From contig NZ_LR735018.1 of the NCBI RefSeq assembly GCF_900009265.2, positions 1-59,844 of the forward strand: a stretch of 59,844 bases of DNA, written 5' to 3'. Positions within the stretch are counted from its first letter, which is position 1; the number at the start of each line of letters is the position of its first letter. The DNA comes from Planktothrix paucivesiculata PCC 9631. Its GTDB lineage: Bacteria; Cyanobacteriota; Cyanobacteriia; Cyanobacteriales; Microcoleaceae. A program made the translations under genes and the position numbers. The notes under the pieces were generated by a model. It saw only the letters and a program-made list of their open reading frames with translations. It did not search any database and was not told the DNA's origin. Shown here in pieces: positions 47,184 through 59,844 of this stretch.

Positions 47184-47621
47184 ATGATTATTTTTACGCA
47201 ATTAGTTTTAGAGAAAGAGAATCAACAAGTTACAGTTCATCTCGCTCTAACCGCAGAACAACGGACAAAAACCCGTCAATATATTGAAACTTTAGAGGGT
47301 GAAACCTATTATCTTCGTCTTCCCAGGGGAATAATTTTAAAGGCGGGGGATTTATTAACCTCTGATGCTCAAGATATTTGGGCGAAAGTTGTTGCTAAAC
47401 CTGAACCTATTATTACGGTCAGGGCTAACCATTCCCTCGATTTATTAAAAGCGGCTTATCACTTAGGAAATCGTCATGTTCAGTTAGAAATTACCGCCGA
47501 CTATTTACGATTTTCCCCCGATCCTGTATTATCTTCAATGTTAGTGCATCAAGGATTAACAATTCAAGAAGAAATTGCTCCTTTTTATCCTGAACGGGGA
47601 GCTTATGGACATGATCATTAA
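47184..47621 (+). CDS. ureE: Urease accessory protein UreE (nickel metallochaperone)
   Basis: Delivers nickel to the urease active site. The 145-residue protein has the UreE N-terminal domain ([17 protein letters not shown]) and the C-terminal metal domain with [25 protein letters not shown] and [10 protein letters not shown]. The short HDH tail is minimal compared with the long His tails of other UreE proteins. First gene of the ureE-F-G-D-A set. Confidence 0.95.
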
Positions 47622-47622
47622 T

Positions 47623-47646
47623 AATTACGAATTACGAATTACGAAT
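47623..47646. repeat. Heptamer array between ureE and ureF
   Basis: Three AATTACG units occupy the whole 26-bp spacer between ureE and ureF and run up to the ureF ATG. Confidence 0.85.
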
Positions 47647-47647
47647 A

Positions 47648-48337
47648 ATGATTTTAAATTTATTACAACTTTCAAGTCCGGCTTTACCCTTGGGTGCTTA
47701 TAGTTATTCTGAAGGTTTAGAAACCTTAGTGGAAACTCAAGTTATTACTGATCATTCTAGTTTATTACAGTGGTTAATTCAAGACTTGAATTATGGCGCA
47801 ATTCGGTTAGAAGCTGCCTTAATGGTTCGGGCTTATCGCTGTGTGATTAATCAAGATTATAACCAATTTAATTATTGGAATCAATGGTCAACGGCGGCGA
47901 AAGAAACGGCAGAATTGCGCCAACAAAGTTGGCAGATGGGGAACACTTTAATCCAGCTTTTAGTTAATTTGGAAAAGGTAAAAAAAACAGATTTAGAGTT
48001 ACCTCCTCTGAAAGATTGGACGGAAAAAGTGGGCAAACCTTGTAATTATGCGATCGCATTTGGACTAGGTGCAGTATATTGGGATCTTGATCTCAAAAAT
48101 GCCCTACTGGGATATCTCTATAGTTGGGCGACTAATTTAATTAATGCTGGGGTAAAACTAATTCCCTTGGGTCAAACTATGGGTCAAACTTTACTCTTAC
48201 AATTACACCCGGAAATAGAATCAACAGCTACAGCTATTTTACAATTAGAAGATGAGGATTTAGTGAGTTGTAATTGGGGGTTAGCCTTAGCAAGTATGGC
48301 CCATGAAACCCAATATAGTCGATTATTTAGAAGTTAA
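47648..48337 (+). CDS. ureF: Urease accessory protein UreF
   Basis: Part of the UreD-UreF-UreG complex that activates urease. The 229-residue helical protein has the family pattern: [19 protein letters not shown] at the N-terminus, [39 protein letters not shown] and [10 protein letters not shown]. Its ATG follows the heptamer array directly, so the ribosome-binding region is repeat DNA. Confidence 0.95.
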
Positions 48338-48387
48338 TTATATCAATTTATGGTATAATTAATTTAGATAGTTTTTCTCTTAATTTT

Positions 48388-48987
48388 ATGTCTGGTTTAA
48401 GAATTGGAATTGCCGGGCCAGTGGGTTCAGGAAAAACAGCCTTAGTTGATGTTTTGTGTAAGCAAATGCGAACCTCCTATCAATTAGCGGTAGTTACGAA
48501 CGATATTTATACTCAAGAAGATGCTCAATTTTTGGTTAATTCCCAAGCCTTAGAAAGCGATCGTATTTTAGGAGTAGAAACCGGAGGTTGTCCCCATACA
48601 GCTATTAGAGAAGATGCCTCTTTAAACTTAGCGGCCATTGAACAATTAGAAACCAAATTCAATAATTTAGATCTGTTATTTGTAGAAAGTGGTGGGGATA
48701 ATTTAGCGGCAACCTTTAGCCCGGAATTAGTGGATATTACGATTTATGTTATTGATGTAGCCGCCGGAGATAAAATTCCCCGCAAAGGTGGGCCAGGAAT
48801 TACCAAATCCGATTTATTAGTGATTAATAAAATTGACCTCGCGCCCTTAGTCGGTGCAGATTTAGGAATTATGGAAAGGGACGCGAAAAAAATGCGAGGA
48901 AACAAACCCTTTGTATTTACCAATTTAAAAACCCAACAAGGATTAGATGCTATCATTAAATTTATTAAGTCTCACTTAATCCCGTAG
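48388..48987 (+). CDS. ureG: Urease accessory GTPase UreG
   Basis: GTPase that drives nickel insertion. P-loop GPVGSGKT at 10-17, the CPH nickel-binding motif in [38 protein letters not shown] and the NKIDLAP specificity motif are all present; length 199 is normal. The stop codon TAG is contributed by a dispersed repeat (CCCGTAG at 48981-48987), giving a C-terminus ending LIP. Confidence 0.97.
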
Positions 48988-49124
48988 TAAGCCCTTCAGG
49001 GCTGTCTTAATTCCTTAGAGTTAATAGTAAAAACTAACATTAATAACGATATCCCGTAGTAAGCCCTTTAGGGCTGTATTAATTCCCTAGAGTTAATAGT
49101 AAAAACTAACATTAATAACGATGT
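48981..49124. repeat. Two 72-bp tandem repeats between ureG and ureD
   Basis: Two near-identical units start at 48981 and 49053, each with CCCGTAGTAAGCCC, an AGCCCT/AGGGCT stem and AGTTAATAGTAAAAACTAAC. An inverted relative (AAGCCCGGTCGGGCTTACTA) is at about 49157-49176. The family recurs at 56966-57066. Confidence 0.9.
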
Positions 49125-49184
49125 ATAATTATTGGTTTAGCAATGATAAAAACTTGAAGAAGCCCGGTCGGGCTTACTACTTTT

Positions 49185-50033
49185 ATGAAAAATTTAGAAA
49201 TCAATGCCTCCCAATGGCAAGGAATATTGGAGTTAGATTATCAAAAAATTAACAATTCTACTCAGTTAGTTAAAGCTTATAGTCAAGCTCCATTAAAAAT
49301 TCAACGTTCTTTTTATCCCGAAGGTCAGGAGATCTGCCATAGTATTATATTACATACGGCCGGAGGAATGGTCGGGGGCGATCGCCTCTGCCAAACTATT
49401 AATTTACAACCCACAACCCAAGTAGTATTAACCACTCCCGCAGCTAGTAAAATTTATCGAAGTTCGGGAGAAACGGCTCACAATATTATTAATATTGAAG
49501 TCCAAAAACAAGCCTATTTAGAGTTTATTCCCAGGGAAGTAATTATCTTTAATGGAGCTATTTTTAGTCAAAATCTCCGAGTTAATTTAGCTCCTGACGC
49601 TTGTTATTTGGGATGGGAAATTACCCGATTTGGACGCACAGCGAGGGGAGAAATATTCAATCAAGGACAGTGGAAATCCTGTACAGAAATCTGGCAAAAT
49701 GGCTGTCCGGTTTGGATTGATCGACAGGGGTTTATAGCCAATGAAGAAATATTGAATAGTCCCCATGGTTTGGCAGGACAACCTGTAATTGCCACCTTAA
49801 CTTGGGTGGGACAATCTGTTTCTGAAGATGTTATTAATAGTATCAGACAATTGTGGTCAGAGCGAGAAACTTCTAGTCAAGCTGGAGTGACCCAATTAAT
49901 ATCAGGATTACTCTGTCGCTATCGAGGAAATTCGACCCAAGAGGTGATACACTGGTTTACGGATGTTTGGCAGTTGCTCCGTCAAAATTATACGGGAAAA
50001 TCAATTGTCAAACCTCGCGTCTGGCAACTTTAA
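49185..50033 (+). CDS. ureD: Urease accessory protein UreD/UreH
   Basis: Scaffold that binds apo-urease and receives UreF and UreG. The 282-residue protein has the family segments SYSQAPLKIQRSFYPEG-like start, HTAGGMVGGDRL, TPAASKIYRS, YLEFIPREVIIFNGAIFSQ, and GWEITRFGRTARGE. It is separated from ureG by a 197-bp repeat-filled gap, so it may have its own promoter, and is 27 bp upstream of ureA. Confidence 0.95.
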   Translation: MKNLEINASQWQGILELDYQKINNSTQLVKAYSQAPLKIQRSFYPEGQEICHSIILHTAGGMVGGDRLCQTINLQPTTQVVLTTPAASKIYRSSGETAHNIINIEVQKQAYLEFIPREVIIFNGAIFSQNLRVNLAPDACYLGWEITRFGRTARGEIFNQGQWKSCTEIWQNGCPVWIDRQGFIANEEILNSPHGLAGQPVIATLTWVGQSVSEDVINSIRQLWSERETSSQAGVTQLISGLLCRYRGNSTQEVIHWFTDVWQLLRQNYTGKSIVKPRVWQL

Positions 50034-50060
50034 TGGCTTAAAAATTATTAAGATAAATCT

Positions 50061-50366
50061 ATGCAATTATCCCCGCAAGAAAAAGATAAGTTATTAATTT
50101 TTACGGCTGCTTTATTAGCAGAAAGAAGGAAAGCAAAAGGACTAAAATTAAACTATCCTGAAGCCGTTGCTTATATTACTGCTGCTATTTTAGAGGGGGC
50201 TAGGGAAGGACGAACAGTTTCGGAATTAATGAGTTATGGAAAAACAATTTTAAGGCGGGAAGATGTGATGGAGGGGATTCCTGAAATGATTCATGACGTA
50301 CAGGTAGAAGCCACTTTTCCCGATGGAACAAAATTAGTTACTGTTCATGATCCTATCGGTAATTAG
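50061..50366 (+). CDS. ureA: Urease gamma subunit
   Basis: The 101-residue structural gamma subunit of bacterial urease: [57 protein letters not shown] and [24 protein letters not shown] (in parts) match throughout. The beta (ureB) and catalytic alpha (ureC) genes that usually follow are absent: the next 110 bp hold a dispersed repeat, then an oppositely oriented protease gene. Confidence 0.96.
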
Positions 50367-50483: not shown

Positions 50484-51764
50484 TTACTGATTAATGGGGA
50501 TAGCTGCGGTTTTCACGTCTAAATTCAGGGGTTGACCTTGACGTTTAATTTGCATTTTTAACTGACTTCCTACCGTTACATTCTCAACAATTTGTTGGAT
50601 TTCATCGGCTTTTGTGACGGGGTTATTATCCACTTGAATAATCACATCTCCGGCGCGTAATCCTGATTGATGGGCGGGTGAATTAGGCATAACGCGGGCA
50701 ATCAAAACTCCTTGATCTTCATTCACACTAATCGGACTATTTGGATCTTGATTTAAACTTTCTTTGACTTCAGGAGAAAGCGTGACCATTTGAATTCCTA
50801 AATAGGGATGTTCGACTTTTCCTGTGGTGGAAATTTGATCGGCAATGCGTTGAACTTGATTAATCGGAATAGCAAATCCTAAGCCCTGAGCGCCTTGAAT
50901 AATTGCGGTATTCATCCCAATTACCTCACCGTTTTGATTGAGTAACGGCCCACCGGAATTACCCGGATTAATAGCGGCATCGGTTTGAATAAAACTGACT
51001 CGTTTATCGGGAATACCAACTTCACTTCCCGAACGACCTGTGGCACTAATAATACCTACAGTGACGGTATTATCTAATCCTAATGGGTTGCCAATGGCGA
51101 TCGCTAATTCCCCCGGTTGTAAAGTCTCAGAATTACCAATAGTTAAAGTCGGTAAATTATCCGCTTGAATTTGAATCACAGCAACATCTGTTACCGGGTC
51201 AGCCCCAATTACTTTTCCTTCAAATTGACGACCATCTTTTAAGACAACCGATACTTTTGTTGCCCCATCAACAACGTGAGCATTAGTAATAATTCGACCA
51301 TTGGAATTAACAATAAATCCTGACCCCGAACCCCGAACAATTTCCTGTTTAGGAGTATTGGGCATTTGGGAACCAAAGAAACGTTCAAAAAGGGGATCAT
51401 TAAACTGTTGGGGAATCTGATTTTCAATAGTTTTGGTCGCGTTAATTCGGACAACGGCTGGCCCAAAACGCTGTACCACGGAAGCCACGAGGTCGGGAGT
51501 GGCAATTGTCCCCGGGTTGGCACTGACCGGAGCCCCAAGGGCGGTCGGAGGTACGGGGGATGTCACCGTCGCGGGGGTGGGTTGAGGGCGTTGGAGTTGA
51601 GGTAGAATAGACATCCCGGCAATTCCTGCCCCTACTCCTAATAAAACTAAAGATAAGGAAGTTAAAGATTGGGTTCTCGGATGTTGAGTCGGACGGGGTG
51701 TTTGCGTCCATTCTAAACGGGGGGATTCTACGGAAGAATTTAAAGCATCAAAATCAGATTTCAT
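50484..51764 (-). CDS. HtrA/DegP-type serine protease (HhoA/HhoB/HtrA group)
   Basis: An envelope quality-control protease of 426 residues. One membrane anchor (about 36-54), a Pro-rich linker, a trypsin-like domain with catalytic His163 (ITNAHVVDGA), Asp193 (DPVTDVAVIQI) and Ser270 (NPGNSGGPLL), then one PDZ domain (GVLIARVMPNSPAHQSGLRA and onward). Cyanobacteria have three such paralogues; which one this is cannot be told. The 317-bp upstream region (51765-52087) shows no gene. Confidence 0.95.
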   Translation of the reverse strand: MKSDFDALNSSVESPRLEWTQTPRPTQHPRTQSLTSLSLVLLGVGAGIAGMSILPQLQRPQPTPATVTSPVPPTALGAPVSANPGTIATPDLVASVVQRFGPAVVRINATKTIENQIPQQFNDPLFERFFGSQMPNTPKQEIVRGSGSGFIVNSNGRIITNAHVVDGATKVSVVLKDGRQFEGKVIGADPVTDVAVIQIQADNLPTLTIGNSETLQPGELAIAIGNPLGLDNTVTVGIISATGRSGSEVGIPDKRVSFIQTDAAINPGNSGGPLLNQNGEVIGMNTAIIQGAQGLGFAIPINQVQRIADQISTTGKVEHPYLGIQMVTLSPEVKESLNQDPNSPISVNEDQGVLIARVMPNSPAHQSGLRAGDVIIQVDNNPVTKADEIQQIVENVTVGSQLKMQIKRQGQPLNLDVKTAAIPINQ

Positions 51765-52087
51765 ATTAATACCTCTATTTATAAGGATTTAAGGGGTTGT
51801 TCGGTGTTTTGCCCCGATATTCTTTAAGTTACAGGTTGAATATGACATTACTGTGGCAAAGGTATGACACCCAGATGAAGATTTTAGTATTAAGCAGAAT
51901 TAAGTAATTTTACGGATTGTCAGTTTAATTGATCACAATCAGAAGCATCATTTTGTTAATAAACGGTGTAGAATTATGATAAAATAAACTCAATAACTGA
52001 TGATCAAATTTTTTGATTTTTTAAATCCTTAAAATTTAGATACTAATTCGTTCATAATTAATTTTAAACTTTCCCCCAATATTGATA

Positions 52088-53122
52088 ATGATTGATTTTG
52101 CAAATTCAGAATCTCCCTTGGGAAGCATTTTATTAGTAGATGATAAACCTGATAATTTAAGACTATTATCTACAATGTTAACAGAACATCAATATGAAGT
52201 TAGGCGGGTGACAAAAGGGGTGATGGCATTAAAAACAGCTAAAGCAGCACCCCCGGATTTAATTCTTCTGGATATTAAGTTACCCGATATTGACGGATAT
52301 CAAGTCTGTGAATCCCTCAAATCCGATCAGATTACGGCGGAAATTCCGATTATTTTTATTAGTGCTTTAGATAATGTTTTAGATAAAGTTAAAGCCTTTA
52401 GTGTGGGAGGAGTTGATTATATTACTAAGCCTTTTCAGGTGGAAGAAGTATTAGTCAGAGTTAAAAATCACTTAACTTTACGAACTCAACATCAACTTTT
52501 ACTGGCACAAAATGAAAGGTTACAACAGGAAATTCAAGCTCGCAAAGTAATTGAAGCAGCTTTGCAAAAATCTCAACTGGAACTACAGAAACTCAACCAA
52601 GAATTAGATCGGTTAGCCCATTTAGATGGATTGACTCAAACAGCTAACCGACGGCAATTTGATTACTATTTACAGCAGGAATGGCAGCGACTCAGTTCTG
52701 AACAAAATCCCTTATCCTTGATTATGTGTGACGTCGATTATTTTAAGTCCTATAATGATACCTATGGTCACCAAGCGGGGGATGATTGTTTACGAGCGAT
52801 CGCCCAAGCAATTAGTCAAGCCATGAGCAGTTATTCCGGTTTAGTTGCTCGTTATGGGGGAGAAGAATTTGGGATTATTTTACCTCAAACCCAAGGATCA
52901 GAAGCCCATAAAATTGCCGAAAAAATCCAACAGGAAGTGGAAAATTTACAACTGGTTCATGCCGGATCTAAAGCCAGTTCTTATATTACTTTAAGTTTAG
53001 GTATAACCTCTCTGATTCCTTGCCTAGATTCTAGTCCATTCCTATTGATTGAATTAGCAGATCGCGCTCTCTATCAAGCCAAAAAACAGGGGCGAAATTG
53101 TATTATTACATTACTTAAATAA
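52088..53122 (+). CDS. Response regulator diguanylate cyclase (REC-GGDEF)
   Basis: A PleD-like c-di-GMP synthase of 344 residues. Receiver: LVDDKPDN, phospho-acceptor in [14 protein letters not shown], and Lys in YITKPFQ. Coiled coil about 130-175. GGDEF domain: [37 protein letters not shown] and active GGEEF, with no RxxD inhibitory site (YSG in that region). ATG 52088 is used; TTG 52082 is in frame. Its stop is 4 bp before the large hybrid kinase, which is its most likely phosphodonor. It is close in sequence to the receiver-GGDEF protein at 24562. Confidence 0.96.
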
Positions 53123-53126
53123 AGCC

Positions 53127-56100
53127 ATGTCTGAAAATCTACCCATTTCCCTAAATACAGCCACCCAAGAACAATTGATTGAGGAAGTTATCAGTCTACG
53201 AAAACAAGTCCTACAACTGGAGCAAATCAAGAGTACAGAACCCTATCAAGTGGCGCAACAAAAAGCTTTGTTTGCGGTGATTAGTAAAATTAGGGAATCT
53301 TTAGATTTAGATAGTATTTTTAAGTCTACTGCCACGGAAGTTCGTCAACTTTTAAATGCTGATCGCGTTGGGATGTATAGGTTTGACTCCGATTCTAAAT
53401 ATGAATGGGGAGAATTTGTTTCTGAGGATGTTTTGCCCGATTTTCGTCCGGCGTTATCCGCCAAAATTAGAGATCATTGTTTTGGGGAACATTATATTAA
53501 CTATTATCTTCATGGCAAAATTTGGAAATCTAATGATATTTATGACTCAAAATTACCCCGTTGTTATGTACAGGTATTATCCCAATTTCAGATTAGGGCT
53601 AATCTAGTTGCACCCTTGCTTAAAGGGAAGGACTTATGGGGATTACTCTGCATTCATCAATGTTCTGGCCCTCGAGAATGGCACGAGTCAGAAATAGAAT
53701 TTGTCCGCCAAATTGCCACCCATTTAGGAATAGCTTTACAACACGCTGAATTTGTTAAACAGTTACAAATGCAGTCAGAATATTTAACCCAAGCGGTTAA
53801 TCAAGCAGTTGAACGAGAAATAGCCGTGGCTGCAATTATCAATAAAATTCGTCAATCCCTCCAACTGAATACGATTTTTACCACCACAACCCAAGAAGTG
53901 TGTCAACTTTTAAAAGCGGATCGAGTGGTGATTTATCGATTTAATTCTGATTGGACTGGAGAATTTTTAGTGGAATCGAAAACAGAAGAATGGAAATCTT
54001 TAATTGAAGAACAACAGTATGATCCACAATTTAAACGCAATGTGAGTGAATGTAGTGTCAAATACTTAGCTAATCTTTCCAGCAGTGATAGTTATTTACA
54101 GGAAACTCAAGGAGGAAACTTCACCCGAGGCGAAGTATTTAGGGTTTGTAATGATATTTATAAAGCCAATTTTTCCCCCTGCTATATTGAAATATTAGAG
54201 AAGTATGAAGCTAAAGCCTATGCGATTATTGCGATTTATCAAGGGAAAAATTTATGGGGTTTATTGGCAGCTTATCAAAATCAAAGCCCTCGACATTGGC
54301 AAAAATCAGAAATTAATTTTTTAATTCAAATTGGTGGACAATTAGGTGTAGCCATTCAACAGGCGGAATTACTCGCCCTAGCGGAACAGCAAAAACGAGA
54401 TTTAGAAACCATATTAGCAGCAGAACTCCATCGTCAATCGGAAAGTTTAATTCAAGAAGCAGAACGAGAAATAGCCTTAGCTCAAGTGATTGATAAAATT
54501 CGCCGGACTTTGGATATTAATACTATTTTTGAAACGGCGACGGCGGAAGTTCGTCAACTCTTAAATGCGGATCGAGTGGCGGTGTTTAAATTTAAACCCC
54601 ATTCCAATTGGAATCAAGGAAAATTTGTCTCAGAAAATGTTTTATCTAGCTTTTGTTCTCTCTTAGAAACTCATATAGAAGATCACTGTTTTGGAGAAAA
54701 ATTTGCTCAGAATTATCCCCTGGGTCATGTTCAGGTTTTACCTAATATTCATCAGGCAGGATTAACAGATTGTTATGTACAGATTTTAGCTCAATTTGAA
54801 ATTCAGGCTAATTTAGTTGTAGCCTTACTCAAAGGCGATGAATTATGGGGATTATTATGTATTCATCAATGTTCAGAACCCCGTCAATGGCAAAAAAAAG
54901 AAATTGAATTTGTACAGAAAATTGCTATACAATTAGGGGTAGCATTACAACAGGCAGAACTCCTCAGTCAAGCTCAAAAACGTTCAGAAGAACAGGCAAA
55001 AGTTGCCGAACAGGAAAGAGCTTTAGCAAGGGTTATTGACCGAATTCGTCAAACCTTAGATATTGATACTATCTTTAGTTCCACCACCCAAGAAGTTCGC
55101 CAAATTCTTCAATGTGATCGGGTTGTTGTCTATCATTTTATCTCAGAGTGTCTGGGAGAATTTATCTTTGAATCTAAGCTTTCTGGGGGAATTCCTTTAG
55201 CAGAAGCTGAACATCAAAACCTCTGGTTAGATACCCATTTAAAATACCCCACAATTAATCAATATCAAAACCATGAACCTTTAATTATTGATGATATTTT
55301 AAATATTTCTTTGTCTGAGTCTACTCTCAGGATTTTAGAGGGATTTCAGATTCGTGCGTATATCTTAGTTCCGGTTTTTGTGGGGGAAATTCTCTGGGGA
55401 TTATTAGGAGCTTATCAACATAGTAATTCTCGTCATTGGGCTTTACGAGAAGTGAGTCTTTTAACCCAAGTTGCTAATCAGTTGGGGGTTGCTATTCAGC
55501 AGGCTAAACTTTTAGCTCAACTGCAAGAAGCTAAAGAAACCGCCGATGCCGCTAACCGGGCTAAAAGTGAATTTTTAGCGAATATGAGTCATGAATTAAG
55601 AACACCTTTGAATGCGATTTTAGGCTTTACCCAAATTTTAGCTAAACATCACCAATTGAGCTCTATACAACGGGAATTTTTGGGAATTATTGAACGTAGT
55701 GGAGAACATTTACTCGATTTAATTAATGATGTTTTAGAAATGTCAAAAATTGAAGCGGGACGACTCACCTTAAAAGAAACGACTTGTGATCTTTATCATT
55801 TATTGAATAGTTTGGAAGAAATGCTGGAATTAAAAGCAGAAACGAAAGGATTAAATTTAATTTTTGAACGAGATCAAACCGTAACTCGATATTTAAAATT
55901 AGATGAAAGTAAACTTCGTCAAGTTCTGATTAACTTACTGGGAAACGCGCTCAAATTTACTGAATTTGGGTCTGTGATTCTGCGGGTTAAACAAGAAATA
56001 AAAAGATTATCAACTGAAAAATCCGTGACTATTACCTTTGAAGTAGAGGATACTGGCCCCGGTATTGCCGCCGAAGAAATTGATTTATTATTTGAAGCCT

Positions 56101-56972
56101 TTGGGCAAACGGAAACGGGTAGAAAATCCAAGGAAGGGACGGGGTTAGGTTTACCCATCAGCCAACAATTTGTACAAATGATGGGAGGAAATATTACCGT
56201 TAATAGTATTTTAGGAAAAGGAACAATCGTGAGATTTTTTGTTCAAGCGAGTTTAGCAAAAGGCGAGGATATTCAACCCCAAACACCTAAAAAATCCGTG
56301 ATTCGTTTAGCCCCAGGACAACCCAACTATCGAATTTTAGTAGTGGAAGATGCGATCGAAAATCGTCAAGTGTTGGTGCAATTATTATCGATGACGGGGT
56401 TTGAAGTTCAAGAAGCGGTTAATGGTCAAGAAGCGATTGAATTGTGGTCAAGTTGGCAACCCCATTTAATTTGGATGGATATGCGAATGCCGGTGATGGG
56501 TGGAATGGAAGCAACTCGGCGGATTCGAGACTATTCCCAGAAGGAAAATTCCCCGATTATTATTGCATTAACTGCCAATGCCTTTGAAGAAGAACGCGCC
56601 CAAGTTTTACAGGCTGGATGTGATGATTTTGTGAGTAAACCCTTCCGAGATTATATTATTTTTGAAAAAATGGCAACTTATTTAGGATTAGAATATGAAT
56701 ATGCCGACTCCGATGATTCAGGAAGTTCAACGGCTAATCTACAGGGAATATCCGACCCTTCTAACCTAAGCCTAGATTCCTTAGTATTAATGCCTCCAAC
56801 TTGGATTCAGGAATTTCATGAAGCGGTACTTTGTACCAAAGAAAAACGGATTTTTGAGTTAATTGAGCAAATCCCTGAACCCTATTCAGCTTTAGCGTTT
56901 GCCCTGACAAAATTAGCCAATGAATTTCAATTTGATCAAATTTTAGCAGTGACAGAAACCCTGATCCCGTAG
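53127..56972 (+). CDS. Hybrid histidine kinase with four cyanobacteriochrome-like GAF domains
   Basis: A 1281-residue soluble sensor kinase. Four GAF domains (about 45-210, 235-415, 450-612, 635-795) are followed by HisKA (His822 in [11 protein letters not shown]), HATPase ([16 protein letters not shown]) and a receiver (phospho-acceptor Asp1118 in [10 protein letters not shown], Lys1171), then about 100 residues of unassigned tail. GAF1 and GAF3 carry DHCF with Cys118 and Cys521, exactly 28 residues before Cys146 and Cys549, as in the DXCF cyanobacteriochromes. GAF2 looks like the red/green type ([10 protein letters not shown]) with Cys352. All three have Tyr after the chromophore Cys, where His is usual. 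GAF4 has no Cys. So bilin binding is possible but not proven. Cotranscribed with the upstream REC-GGDEF gene. The stop TAG comes from a dispersed repeat. Confidence 0.93.
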
Positions 56973-58430: not shown

Positions 58431-59844
58431 TTAGAAAACAGAGGTAGTAAAGCTACTAAACGTCAGTAAGTTGGGGTCAAGGTTATTCAGAGTTGCTAAA
58501 ATTTGACCATTAATCAGAAGTTGAGTTGAACCATTGACGGCCGTTAGGGTCAGTTGTTCAAGAATCAGACCCCCATCTAGGACAATCATATCCTCGCCGA
58601 TGGTAAAGTCGTTGATGATATCGGGGCCAAATCCTGCCACCAGAACAAAGCGGTCATTCCCTTCGCCTCCGGTTAGGATATCTGCGCCTTCAGCCCCGAC
58701 TAAGATATCATTGCCTTGACCTCCGTTAAGAATATCGTTGCCTTCTCCGCCATCGAGGGTATCGTCACCTTGATCACCCCAAACCAAATCATTGCCTTCG
58801 TTTCCATCCAGAAGGTCGCTGGCTTTTCCGCCATAAATAAGATCGCTGCCAGAGTTACCAGAGATAGTATCGTTCTGTTGGTTACCCAAGAGAAGATCAT
58901 CTCCTTCGTTTCCTTCTATTATGTCGGCTCCGAGGTTGCCGAAGATTAAATCATCTTTGTTACCTCCTTTAATTGATTCATCTCCTTGACCTCCATAGAG
59001 TTGATCCTCTCCATCTCCTCCATGAATCAGATCGTCTCCCGGGTTGCCGTTAATCCAGTCATTTCCCGTATTGCCAGTAATAATATCGTTACCCAGGTTG
59101 CCATAGAGTTCATCCTCTCCGTCCCCTCCGGCGATTTGGTCGTTTTCCTTGCCTCCGAGGACAGTATCGTTACCATTACCCCCATCAATGAAGTCATCCC
59201 CTTGATTACCGTTGATGTAGTCGTCCCCTTCTCCTGTTTCGATATTGTCGCTGCCTGCTAAACCAAAGATGATGTCAGCTTCTACCGCACCTAAGATATC
59301 ATCCTCTCCATTACTGGCAACCTTTGATTCGGAGATGGCATTAGCTTCTAAGCTCTTAAATACGATATTTTTAATGAAATTAGTGGGGTCATAAATATCA
59401 TAATTAAGATCTTTTAAAAAACTAAAAGACATCAACCCAGGAGTCTGTTTTTCTCTGGGTATAGGCGTGGGTTTAACTGTTGGTTCGGGCGTGGGTTCAA
59501 CTGTTGGTTCGGCAGTGGGTTCGACTGTTAGTTCGGGCGTGGGTTCAACGCTGGGTTCCGGTGTCGGTTCAAATGTTGGTTCAACTGTTAGTTCGGGAGT
59601 TGGTTCAACACTGGGTTGCGGTGTAGATTCAACTGTTAGTTCCGGCGTGGGTTCAACGCTGGGTTGCGGTGTAGATTCAACGCTGGGTTTCGGTGTAGAT
59701 TCAACTGTTAGTTCCGGCGTGGGTTCAACGCTGGGTTGCGGTGTTGGTTCAACTGTTGGTTTGGCAGTGGGTTCAACGCTGGGTTGCGGTGTTGGTTCAA
59801 CTGTTGGTTTGGCAGTGGGTTCAACGCTGGGTTGCGGTGTTGGT
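58431..59844 (-). CDS. RTX protein with Pro-Thr-Glu repeat stalk, truncated at the window edge
   Basis: The minus-strand frame is open from the stop at 58431 to the right edge, so the 5' end lies outside. An ATG at about 59430 is internal: the frame continues upstream with no stop as PTP(E/Q)PSVEPT-like repeats (59455-59844), each about 8-10 residues, forming a low-complexity stalk. Then come about 60 residues and a block of RTX nonapeptides (GLAGSDNIETGEGDDYINGN to GGEGNDRF). The end module FGPDIINDFTIGEDMIVLDG is typical of secreted RTX proteins. Third RTX gene in the window. Type I secretion is likely; no partner gene is seen. Confidence 0.9.
   Translation of the reverse strand, partial: PTPQPSVEPTAKPTVEPTPQPSVEPTAKPTVEPTPQPSVEPTPELTVESTPKPSVESTPQPSVEPTPELTVESTPQPSVEPTPELTVEPTFEPTPEPSVEPTPELTVEPTAEPTVEPTPEPTVKPTPIPREKQTPGLMSFSFLKDLNYDIYDPTNFIKNIVFKSLEANAISESKVASNGEDDILGAVEADIIFGLAGSDNIETGEGDDYINGNQGDDFIDGGNGNDTVLGGKENDQIAGGDGEDELYGNLGNDIITGNTGNDWINGNPGDDLIHGGDGEDQLYGGQGDESIKGGNKDDLIFGNLGADIIEGNEGDDLLLGNQQNDTISGNSGSDLIYGGKASDLLDGNEGNDLVWGDQGDDTLDGGEGNDILNGGQGNDILVGAEGADILTGGEGNDRFVLVAGFGPDIINDFTIGEDMIVLDGGLILEQLTLTAVNGSTQLLINGQILATLNNLDPNLLTFSSFTTSVF

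Follow-up and report, generated by a model that had tools for sequence, protein, structure and literature searches.

A putative dual-cysteine cyanobacteriochrome hybrid kinase beside a conserved REC-GGDEF gene in Planktothrix paucivesiculata

The cyanobacteriochromes (CBCRs) known to control cyclic di-GMP (c-di-GMP) are mostly fused enzymes acting within one protein. Here we describe two adjacent genes, one for a response regulator with a receiver and a GGDEF domain (REC-GGDEF) and one for a hybrid histidine kinase with four GAF domains, in a stretch of 59,844 nucleotides from Planktothrix paucivesiculata PCC 9631 (contig NZ_LR735018.1, positions 1 to 59,844; the window). The kinase looks intact and belongs to a known kind of CBCR hybrid kinase, its diguanylate cyclase neighbour is conserved, and we consider it rather probable that the kinase distinguishes near-ultraviolet (near-UV)/blue from teal/green light and controls c-di-GMP, both light sensing and phosphotransfer being predicted from sequence.

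SesA, SesB and SesC of Thermosynechococcus resemble the proposed system in that CBCRs control c-di-GMP according to blue versus teal/green light, but their photosensory and c-di-GMP domains lie in one protein and there is no phosphotransfer step (PMC9090330). The CdgK-CdgS operon of Anabaena PCC 7120, in which a sensory hybrid kinase likewise accompanies a REC-GGDEF protein that makes c-di-GMP, is a characterised example for which the authors conclude that phosphorylation raises cyclase activity, and it shows that such pairs can work (PMC9927289). CdgK differs from the window kinase, however, in being membrane-anchored and in having a CHASE domain, five PAS domains, one GAF domain, two receivers and an Hpt domain, and its gene comes first whereas the REC-GGDEF gene leads in the window (PMC9927289). 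No description of the present pair was found in the literature searched, a search outside which most subscription journals fell.

The reading frames span 52088-53119 for the REC-GGDEF protein and 53127-56969 for the kinase, which starts 4 bp past the stop codon of the former. The features of the pair are as follows, residue numbers being those of the kinase.

52088-53122, forward strand: REC-GGDEF response regulator, 344 amino acids from the ATG at 52088 (alternative start, TTG at 52082)
53127-56972, forward strand: hybrid histidine kinase, 1281 amino acids, in the order GAF1-GAF2-GAF3-GAF4-HisKA-HATPase_c-REC-C-terminal tail
53262-53762, forward strand: GAF1, DXCF type (DHCF); Cys118 (53478-53480) and Cys146-Tyr147 (Cys at 53562-53564)
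53820-54386, forward strand: GAF2, insert-Cys type; Cys309 in CSVK (54051-54053) and Cys352-Tyr353 (Cys at 54180-54182)
54429-54980, forward strand: GAF3, DXCF type (DHCF); Cys521 (54687-54689) and Cys549-Tyr550 (Cys at 54771-54773)
55002-55541, forward strand: GAF4, red/green-like; WLDTHL present, Ser at the canonical Cys position (SEST)
55560-56246, forward strand: HisKA (SHELRTP, residues 812-878) and HATPase_c (residues 926-1040)
56334-56654, forward strand: C-terminal receiver, residues 1070-1176, with MDMRMP, ALTANA and SKPF

The open reading frames, their order and the 4-bp gap are as given in a preliminary description of this DNA, and domain matches agree with its assignment of a kinase with four GAF domains, HisKA, HATPase_c and REC next to a REC and GGDEF protein. 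By motif, HisKA and HATPase are intact and the receiver Asp and GG(D/E)EF are present; the REC-GGDEF protein has the receiver motifs LLDIK and TKPF and the active site GGEEF, and, as judged by eye, the RxxD inhibitory site is absent from its usual place. Pfam gave no match to an Hpt domain in the kinase, which in this respect departs from a phosphorelay of the CdgK type, and 11 Hpt matches were found elsewhere in the genome.

All four GAF domains match solved CBCR structures (E = 1.4e-38 for GAF1, 2.1e-51 for GAF2, 1.3e-46 for GAF3 and 8.9e-47 for GAF4). For GAF1 and GAF3 the best solved match is 6oap, a dual sensor kinase whose DXCF site reads DQYF; for GAF2 and GAF4 it is the red/green NpR6012g4, so that type was set by motifs and not by similarity alone. 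GAF1, the only domain for which a structure was predicted (12 alignment rows, mean predicted local distance difference test score 81, predicted template modelling score 0.81), matches CBCR chains first, with template modelling (TM) scores by query length of 0.72-0.85, of which 6ob8 is the best (0.85) and TePixJ reaches 0.73-0.77. GAF1 and GAF3 thus combine CBCR GAF homology and, on the GAF1 model, the CBCR fold with both a DXCF second Cys and the canonical Cys. The DXCF Cys lies 28 residues ahead of the canonical Cys in both (Cys118/Cys146; Cys521/Cys549); this spacing had been likened to that of TePixJ-type sensors, and it stands, but it recurs in 192 of the 193 DXCF domains surveyed below and is a property of the class, with no particular bearing on a TePixJ type. 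TePixJ and other DXCF CBCRs share the second Cys, the class spacing and the fold (again on the GAF1 model) with GAF1 and GAF3, but TePixJ is, from its Protein Data Bank names, a chemotaxis-type receptor, and the attachment motif in the window is Cys-Tyr (CY). The canonical Cys is indeed kept in GAF1 (Cys146-Tyr147), GAF2 (Cys352-Tyr353) and GAF3 (Cys549-Tyr550), each with Tyr next to it, and is lost from GAF4, both as first described; the residue in its place in GAF4 is Ser.

The assignment of GAF2 to the red/green type, on the other hand, did not survive. Insert-Cys CBCRs are described as having their second Cys within an insertion loop, in a CXXR/K motif that is poorly conserved, and Asp and Tyr where DXCF would stand (PMC5240096). 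GAF2 matches this: its insert, about 20 residues long, contains Cys309 as part of CSVK, and its DXCF site reads DSYL. The red/green CBCR motif is WXDXXL (PMC11284453), in which GAF2 has Ser in place of the Trp (SSDSYL); together the insert Cys and DSYL rule out the red/green (XRG) type, despite NpR6012g4 being the best solved match. GAF4 keeps WLDTHL, but its canonical Cys is Ser in 6/6 of the closest copies, so that it has one of the two XRG marks and lacks the other, and it is probably without a covalently bound chromophore. All three bilin domains look to be dual-Cys and near-UV/blue.

Among insert-Cys domains, Mbr3854g4 (UG1), Mbl3738g2 (UG2) and NpF2164g3 (VO1) resemble GAF2 in that the insert Cys belongs to a CXXK/R motif and the DXCF site has Asp and Tyr; UG1 does so also in its beta2 Phe and helix Tyr (PMC5240096). 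VO1 differs in that a Cys-His (CH) motif is mentioned for it, against CY in GAF2 (PMC5240096); an insert Cys does not, then, always mean CY. A further comparison is offered by NpR1597 of Nostoc punctiforme, of which the first domain (NpR1597g1) is listed as teal-DXCF and the second (NpR1597g2, or UB1) as near-UV/blue, with its insert Cys at residue 298 (PMC5240096). One surveyed locus, L210, comes from a genome (G628) with a sequence 99% identical to that of the NpR6012g4 structure; it encodes first a DXCF and then an insert-Cys domain, each of them CY, and since its insert Cys is likewise residue 298 from the first Met, L210 is very likely the NpR1597 orthologue, and NpR1597 was compared only through it. 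L210 and the window kinase share the order DXCF then insert-Cys and a spacing of 43 residues between insert and canonical Cys (309 to 352 in the window), GAF2 being 62% identical, whereas L210 has, by eye, neither a second DXCF domain nor a C-terminal receiver.

A beta2 Phe and a helix Phe have been tied to the teal-DXCF photocycle (PMC5240096). Both are retained in GAF1 and GAF3; as they occur in 128 of 140 CH and 29 of 45 CY DXCF domains, they are weak evidence of colour. GAF2 has a beta2 Phe and a helix Tyr, as does (by eye) the NpR1597g2 orthologue, and because UG1 is reported with the same two residues (PMC5240096), GAF2 could be either near-UV/blue or near-UV/green. Under the reading we favour, three bilin-binding dual-Cys domains in the order DXCF, insert-Cys, DXCF would each carry phycocyanobilin on the canonical Cys, which the DXCF domains may isomerise to phycoviolobilin; the second Cys would add reversibly to C10 to give dark states absorbing near-UV to blue light, and light would flip the bilin and break the second bond, giving teal/green-absorbing products. 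GAF4, of red/green type but without its Cys, may serve as a coupling domain, the combined state of the GAF domains would set HisKA activity, and phosphate would pass to the adjacent REC-GGDEF protein, thereby changing c-di-GMP. Bilin binding, the colours, the direction of the response and the phosphotransfer are what we infer here, whereas the order of the domains, the cysteines, their conservation and the pairing of the genes are observed.

A number of points weigh against this reading. The nearest solved structures of all four GAF domains are not dual-Cys, and the predicted colours of GAF1 to GAF3 are based on motifs. Because no Hpt domain was matched in the kinase, phosphate may not reach the REC-GGDEF protein, and the kinase may act on nothing but its own receiver. 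The kinase also seems patchy within its genus, which lowered our confidence: its nearest named copies come from an Oscillatoriales metagenome assembly (97%), Planktothrix sp. UBA8402 (91%) and Planktothrix sp. PCC 11201 (90%), and the same-genus genomes G140 and G075 carry it, but two others, G126 and G190, match only at the level of a generic hybrid kinase (E = 2.4e-148 and 1.8e-149) and seem to be without it. From 49 frames with an insert-Cys domain, 13 with less than 900 bp upstream were set aside, and in the 36 scored a REC-GGDEF gene was upstream in 7 and absent in 29, one of the latter being the second piece of the G075 kinase. Finally, photoconversion was not detected in the natural CY domain NpF2164g5 or in miRFP670nano, which has H87Y (PMC9378818), and CY domains could therefore be poorly photoactive.

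The missing Hpt, those 29 frames and the receiver motifs within the kinase itself would also fit a light-sensing kinase that targets its own receiver or another regulator, with the REC-GGDEF neighbour serving a different kinase; we think this possible, although the arrangement of the genes leads us to doubt it. In all six of the closest kinase copies (the window, L031, L032, L033, L002, to which L034 is identical in sequence, and the G075 copy, represented by L036/L003/L164) a close REC-GGDEF homologue lies directly upstream, and a REC-GGDEF gene also lies directly upstream in two other genera (G374 and G339), in the same order and on the same strand, beside kinases that have DXCF and insert-Cys domains too. 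The proposal that the REC-GGDEF gene is the coupled partner is thus supported as far as conserved neighbourhood is concerned. L128 (G339) and L043 (G374) carry the pair in another family; each has a CH motif in its first DXCF domain, and of the last DXCF domains seen in them one is CY and one CH.

The Cys-Tyr motif itself had been thought undescribed, which is not the case. The "CY motif" was named in natural NpF2164g5 and engineered into another CBCR (PMC9378818), the Tyr of miRFP670nano (H87Y, beside the attachment Cys86) stacks on the bilin (PMC6336887), and the CY of NpF2164g5 is also encoded by a published primer, translated here (PMC7504144). NpF2164g5, SPI1085g3 C448S_CY and miRFP670nano share with GAF1-GAF3 a Tyr right after the attachment Cys but are red/green or NpR3784-derived, unlike the DXCF and insert-Cys domains of the window. 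Our survey took in 164 loci, whose 436 raw GAF hits were reduced to 362 unique domains of at least 140 amino acids (74 shorter or repeated hits were dropped), a sample skewed to relatives of the whole kinase and of GAF1. The 193 DXCF domains comprise 141 CH, 45 CY and 7 others; the six closest kinases contribute 12 of the 45 through their GAF1 and GAF3, and after clustering at 75% identity CY is found in 24 of 109 clusters. Non-DXCF domains of at least 182 amino acids (n = 65) are CY in 50 cases, CH in 13 (12 phytochrome-like and one resembling JSC1_58120g3, by eye) and other in 2, whilst only 4 of 104 shorter ones are CY. CXXK/R is present in 41 of the 50 long CY domains, and a Cys precedes the canonical Cys by 36-57 residues in 49 and by exactly 43 in 36. 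CY is a known motif that is fairly common in the dual-Cys CBCRs of this biased sample.

What the Tyr does bears on a second alternative, which we regard as unlikely: that, in all three bilin domains, it makes the dark or the photoproduct state unusually stable, the kinase being a slow, latching or fluence-counting light sensor and not a fast colour switch. The failure to detect photoconversion in NpF2164g5 and miRFP670nano (PMC9378818) agrees with this, as do the separate Tyr gains in GAF1 and GAF3 set out below, and in SPI1085g3 C448S a change from CH to CY brought more biliverdin (BV) binding and fluorescence and slow dark reversion of the photoproduct (PMC9378818). However, these CY data were obtained on domains with a single Cys, some of them with BV, and photoconversion persists in C448S_CY (Po state). 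Both domains of the NpR1597 orthologue are CY, and as NpR1597g1 and NpR1597g2 are listed with teal-DXCF and near-UV/blue photocycles, CY need not stop the photocycle of dual-Cys domains.

The history of the Tyr was followed on a tree of 192 DXCF domains (185 labelled, Tyr/His column excluded), which needs 14 changes between CY and CH, at least 5 of them on supported branches; GAF1 of the six closest copies falls inside a clade that is otherwise CH (15 of 21 rows, support 94). A more careful tree was built from 39 of these rows, hand-picked around GAF1 and GAF3. In it the six GAF1 domains form one clade and the six GAF3 domains another, and the approximately unbiased (AU) test rejected keeping all 12 together, and hence one common origin of CY for GAF1 and GAF3 in Planktothrix (p = 8e-12). 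On these trees the Tyr is acquired separately by GAF1 and GAF3, against the background of a sampled GAF2 group that is CY throughout. The closest full-length relative beyond the six, L004 (G061; 56% identical over its full length), also has a CY GAF1, which may be sister to the six GAF1 domains (AU p = 0.34), so that the gain in GAF1 may predate the genus and a gain confined to Planktothrix is weakened. Twenty-two frames have an insert-Cys domain and at least two DXCF domains, and all such domains are CY in seven of these (five from among the closest copies, two from elsewhere). GAF1 and GAF3 share 70% nucleotide identity across the 55 codons that surround the site, with no sign of a long tract of gene conversion; because the four codons for Cys-Tyr-Val-Gln are identical in the two, a tiny tract is conceivable. 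Among 1231 tests, Ala 16 residues past the Cys stood out (13 of 24 CY versus 6 of 79 CH clusters, p = 3e-6), as did the beta2 Phe (12 of 24 versus 72 of 79), but no covariation with CY is claimed, as there are only 5 independent pairs on supported branches, with which no sign test could reach 0.05. That this lineage turned all three bilin domains of the receptor CY, so that it works as a latching or fluence-integrating near-UV/blue detector, seems doubtful to us; if true, nature would be using in dual-Cys sensors the same change that engineers chose for locking single-Cys domains, with c-di-GMP controlled through a separate response regulator.

Selection was gauged as dN/dS (the ratio of nonsynonymous to synonymous change) by simple count between the window and L031, L032, L033 and L002, L004 being too distant for a value. 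The ratios are 0.095-0.16 for GAF1, 0.12-0.14 for GAF2, 0.10-0.26 for GAF3 and 0.055-0.17 for GAF4, the last of which is constrained despite having lost its covalent attachment site. Both the GAF1 and the GAF3 Cys pairs are present in 6/6 of the closest copies, as is the CY of GAF2, and the insert Cys of GAF2 is found in 5/5 copies whose insert was examined. Degeneration of the GAF domains is unlikely given ratios between 0.055 and 0.26 and the retention of these cysteines by the copies seen. At the level of sequence, the earlier description of a multi-chromophore photoreceptor is upheld by homology to CBCRs and their fold, by the conserved cysteines and by purifying selection. Its alternative, a degenerate relative sensing something else, is not supported for GAF1-GAF3. 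That the GAF domains are degenerate and sense a small molecule or redox state in place of light is highly improbable, for although the lost Cys of GAF4, the Tyr in place of the usual His, the split G075 copy and thiol-rich pockets that could be redox-sensitive would suit it, the cysteines of GAF1-GAF3 are conserved with dN/dS of 0.095-0.26 and published CY domains bind bilin (PMC9378818). In G075 the kinase is broken into two frames, with GAF1 apart from the remainder, by mutation or assembly error.

Upstream of the pair lies a urease cluster of ureE, ureF, ureG, ureD and ureA (47184-50366, forward strand; ureF and ureG named by eye), which is followed by an opposite-strand gene and not by ureC; the genome's sole urease alpha match lies on a different contig (C160), and the urease genes are therefore split. 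Between the cluster and the photoreceptor pair is a gene for an HtrA-like protease (50484-51764, reverse strand; Trypsin_2 and PDZ, named by eye). At the far end of the window, 58431-59843 on the reverse strand encodes an RTX calcium-binding repeat protein with 12 repeat stretches, its RTX part preceded by an in-frame Pro/Thr/Glu/Val-rich repeat that runs past the window end.

Tyr beside the attachment Cys has been seen as an exception in red/green CBCRs, and our survey suggests that it is common in dual-Cys CBCRs, where its photochemical role can be tested through natural CH/CY pairs of one domain. What keeps this locus of interest is that dual-Cys domains gained Tyr repeatedly and in parallel, and that near-UV/blue light may act on c-di-GMP by a two-component route. 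If the proposed reading is true, control of c-di-GMP would run through a separate response regulator, and a conserved CBCR kinase with a separate diguanylate cyclase would add such a two-component route in Planktothrix.

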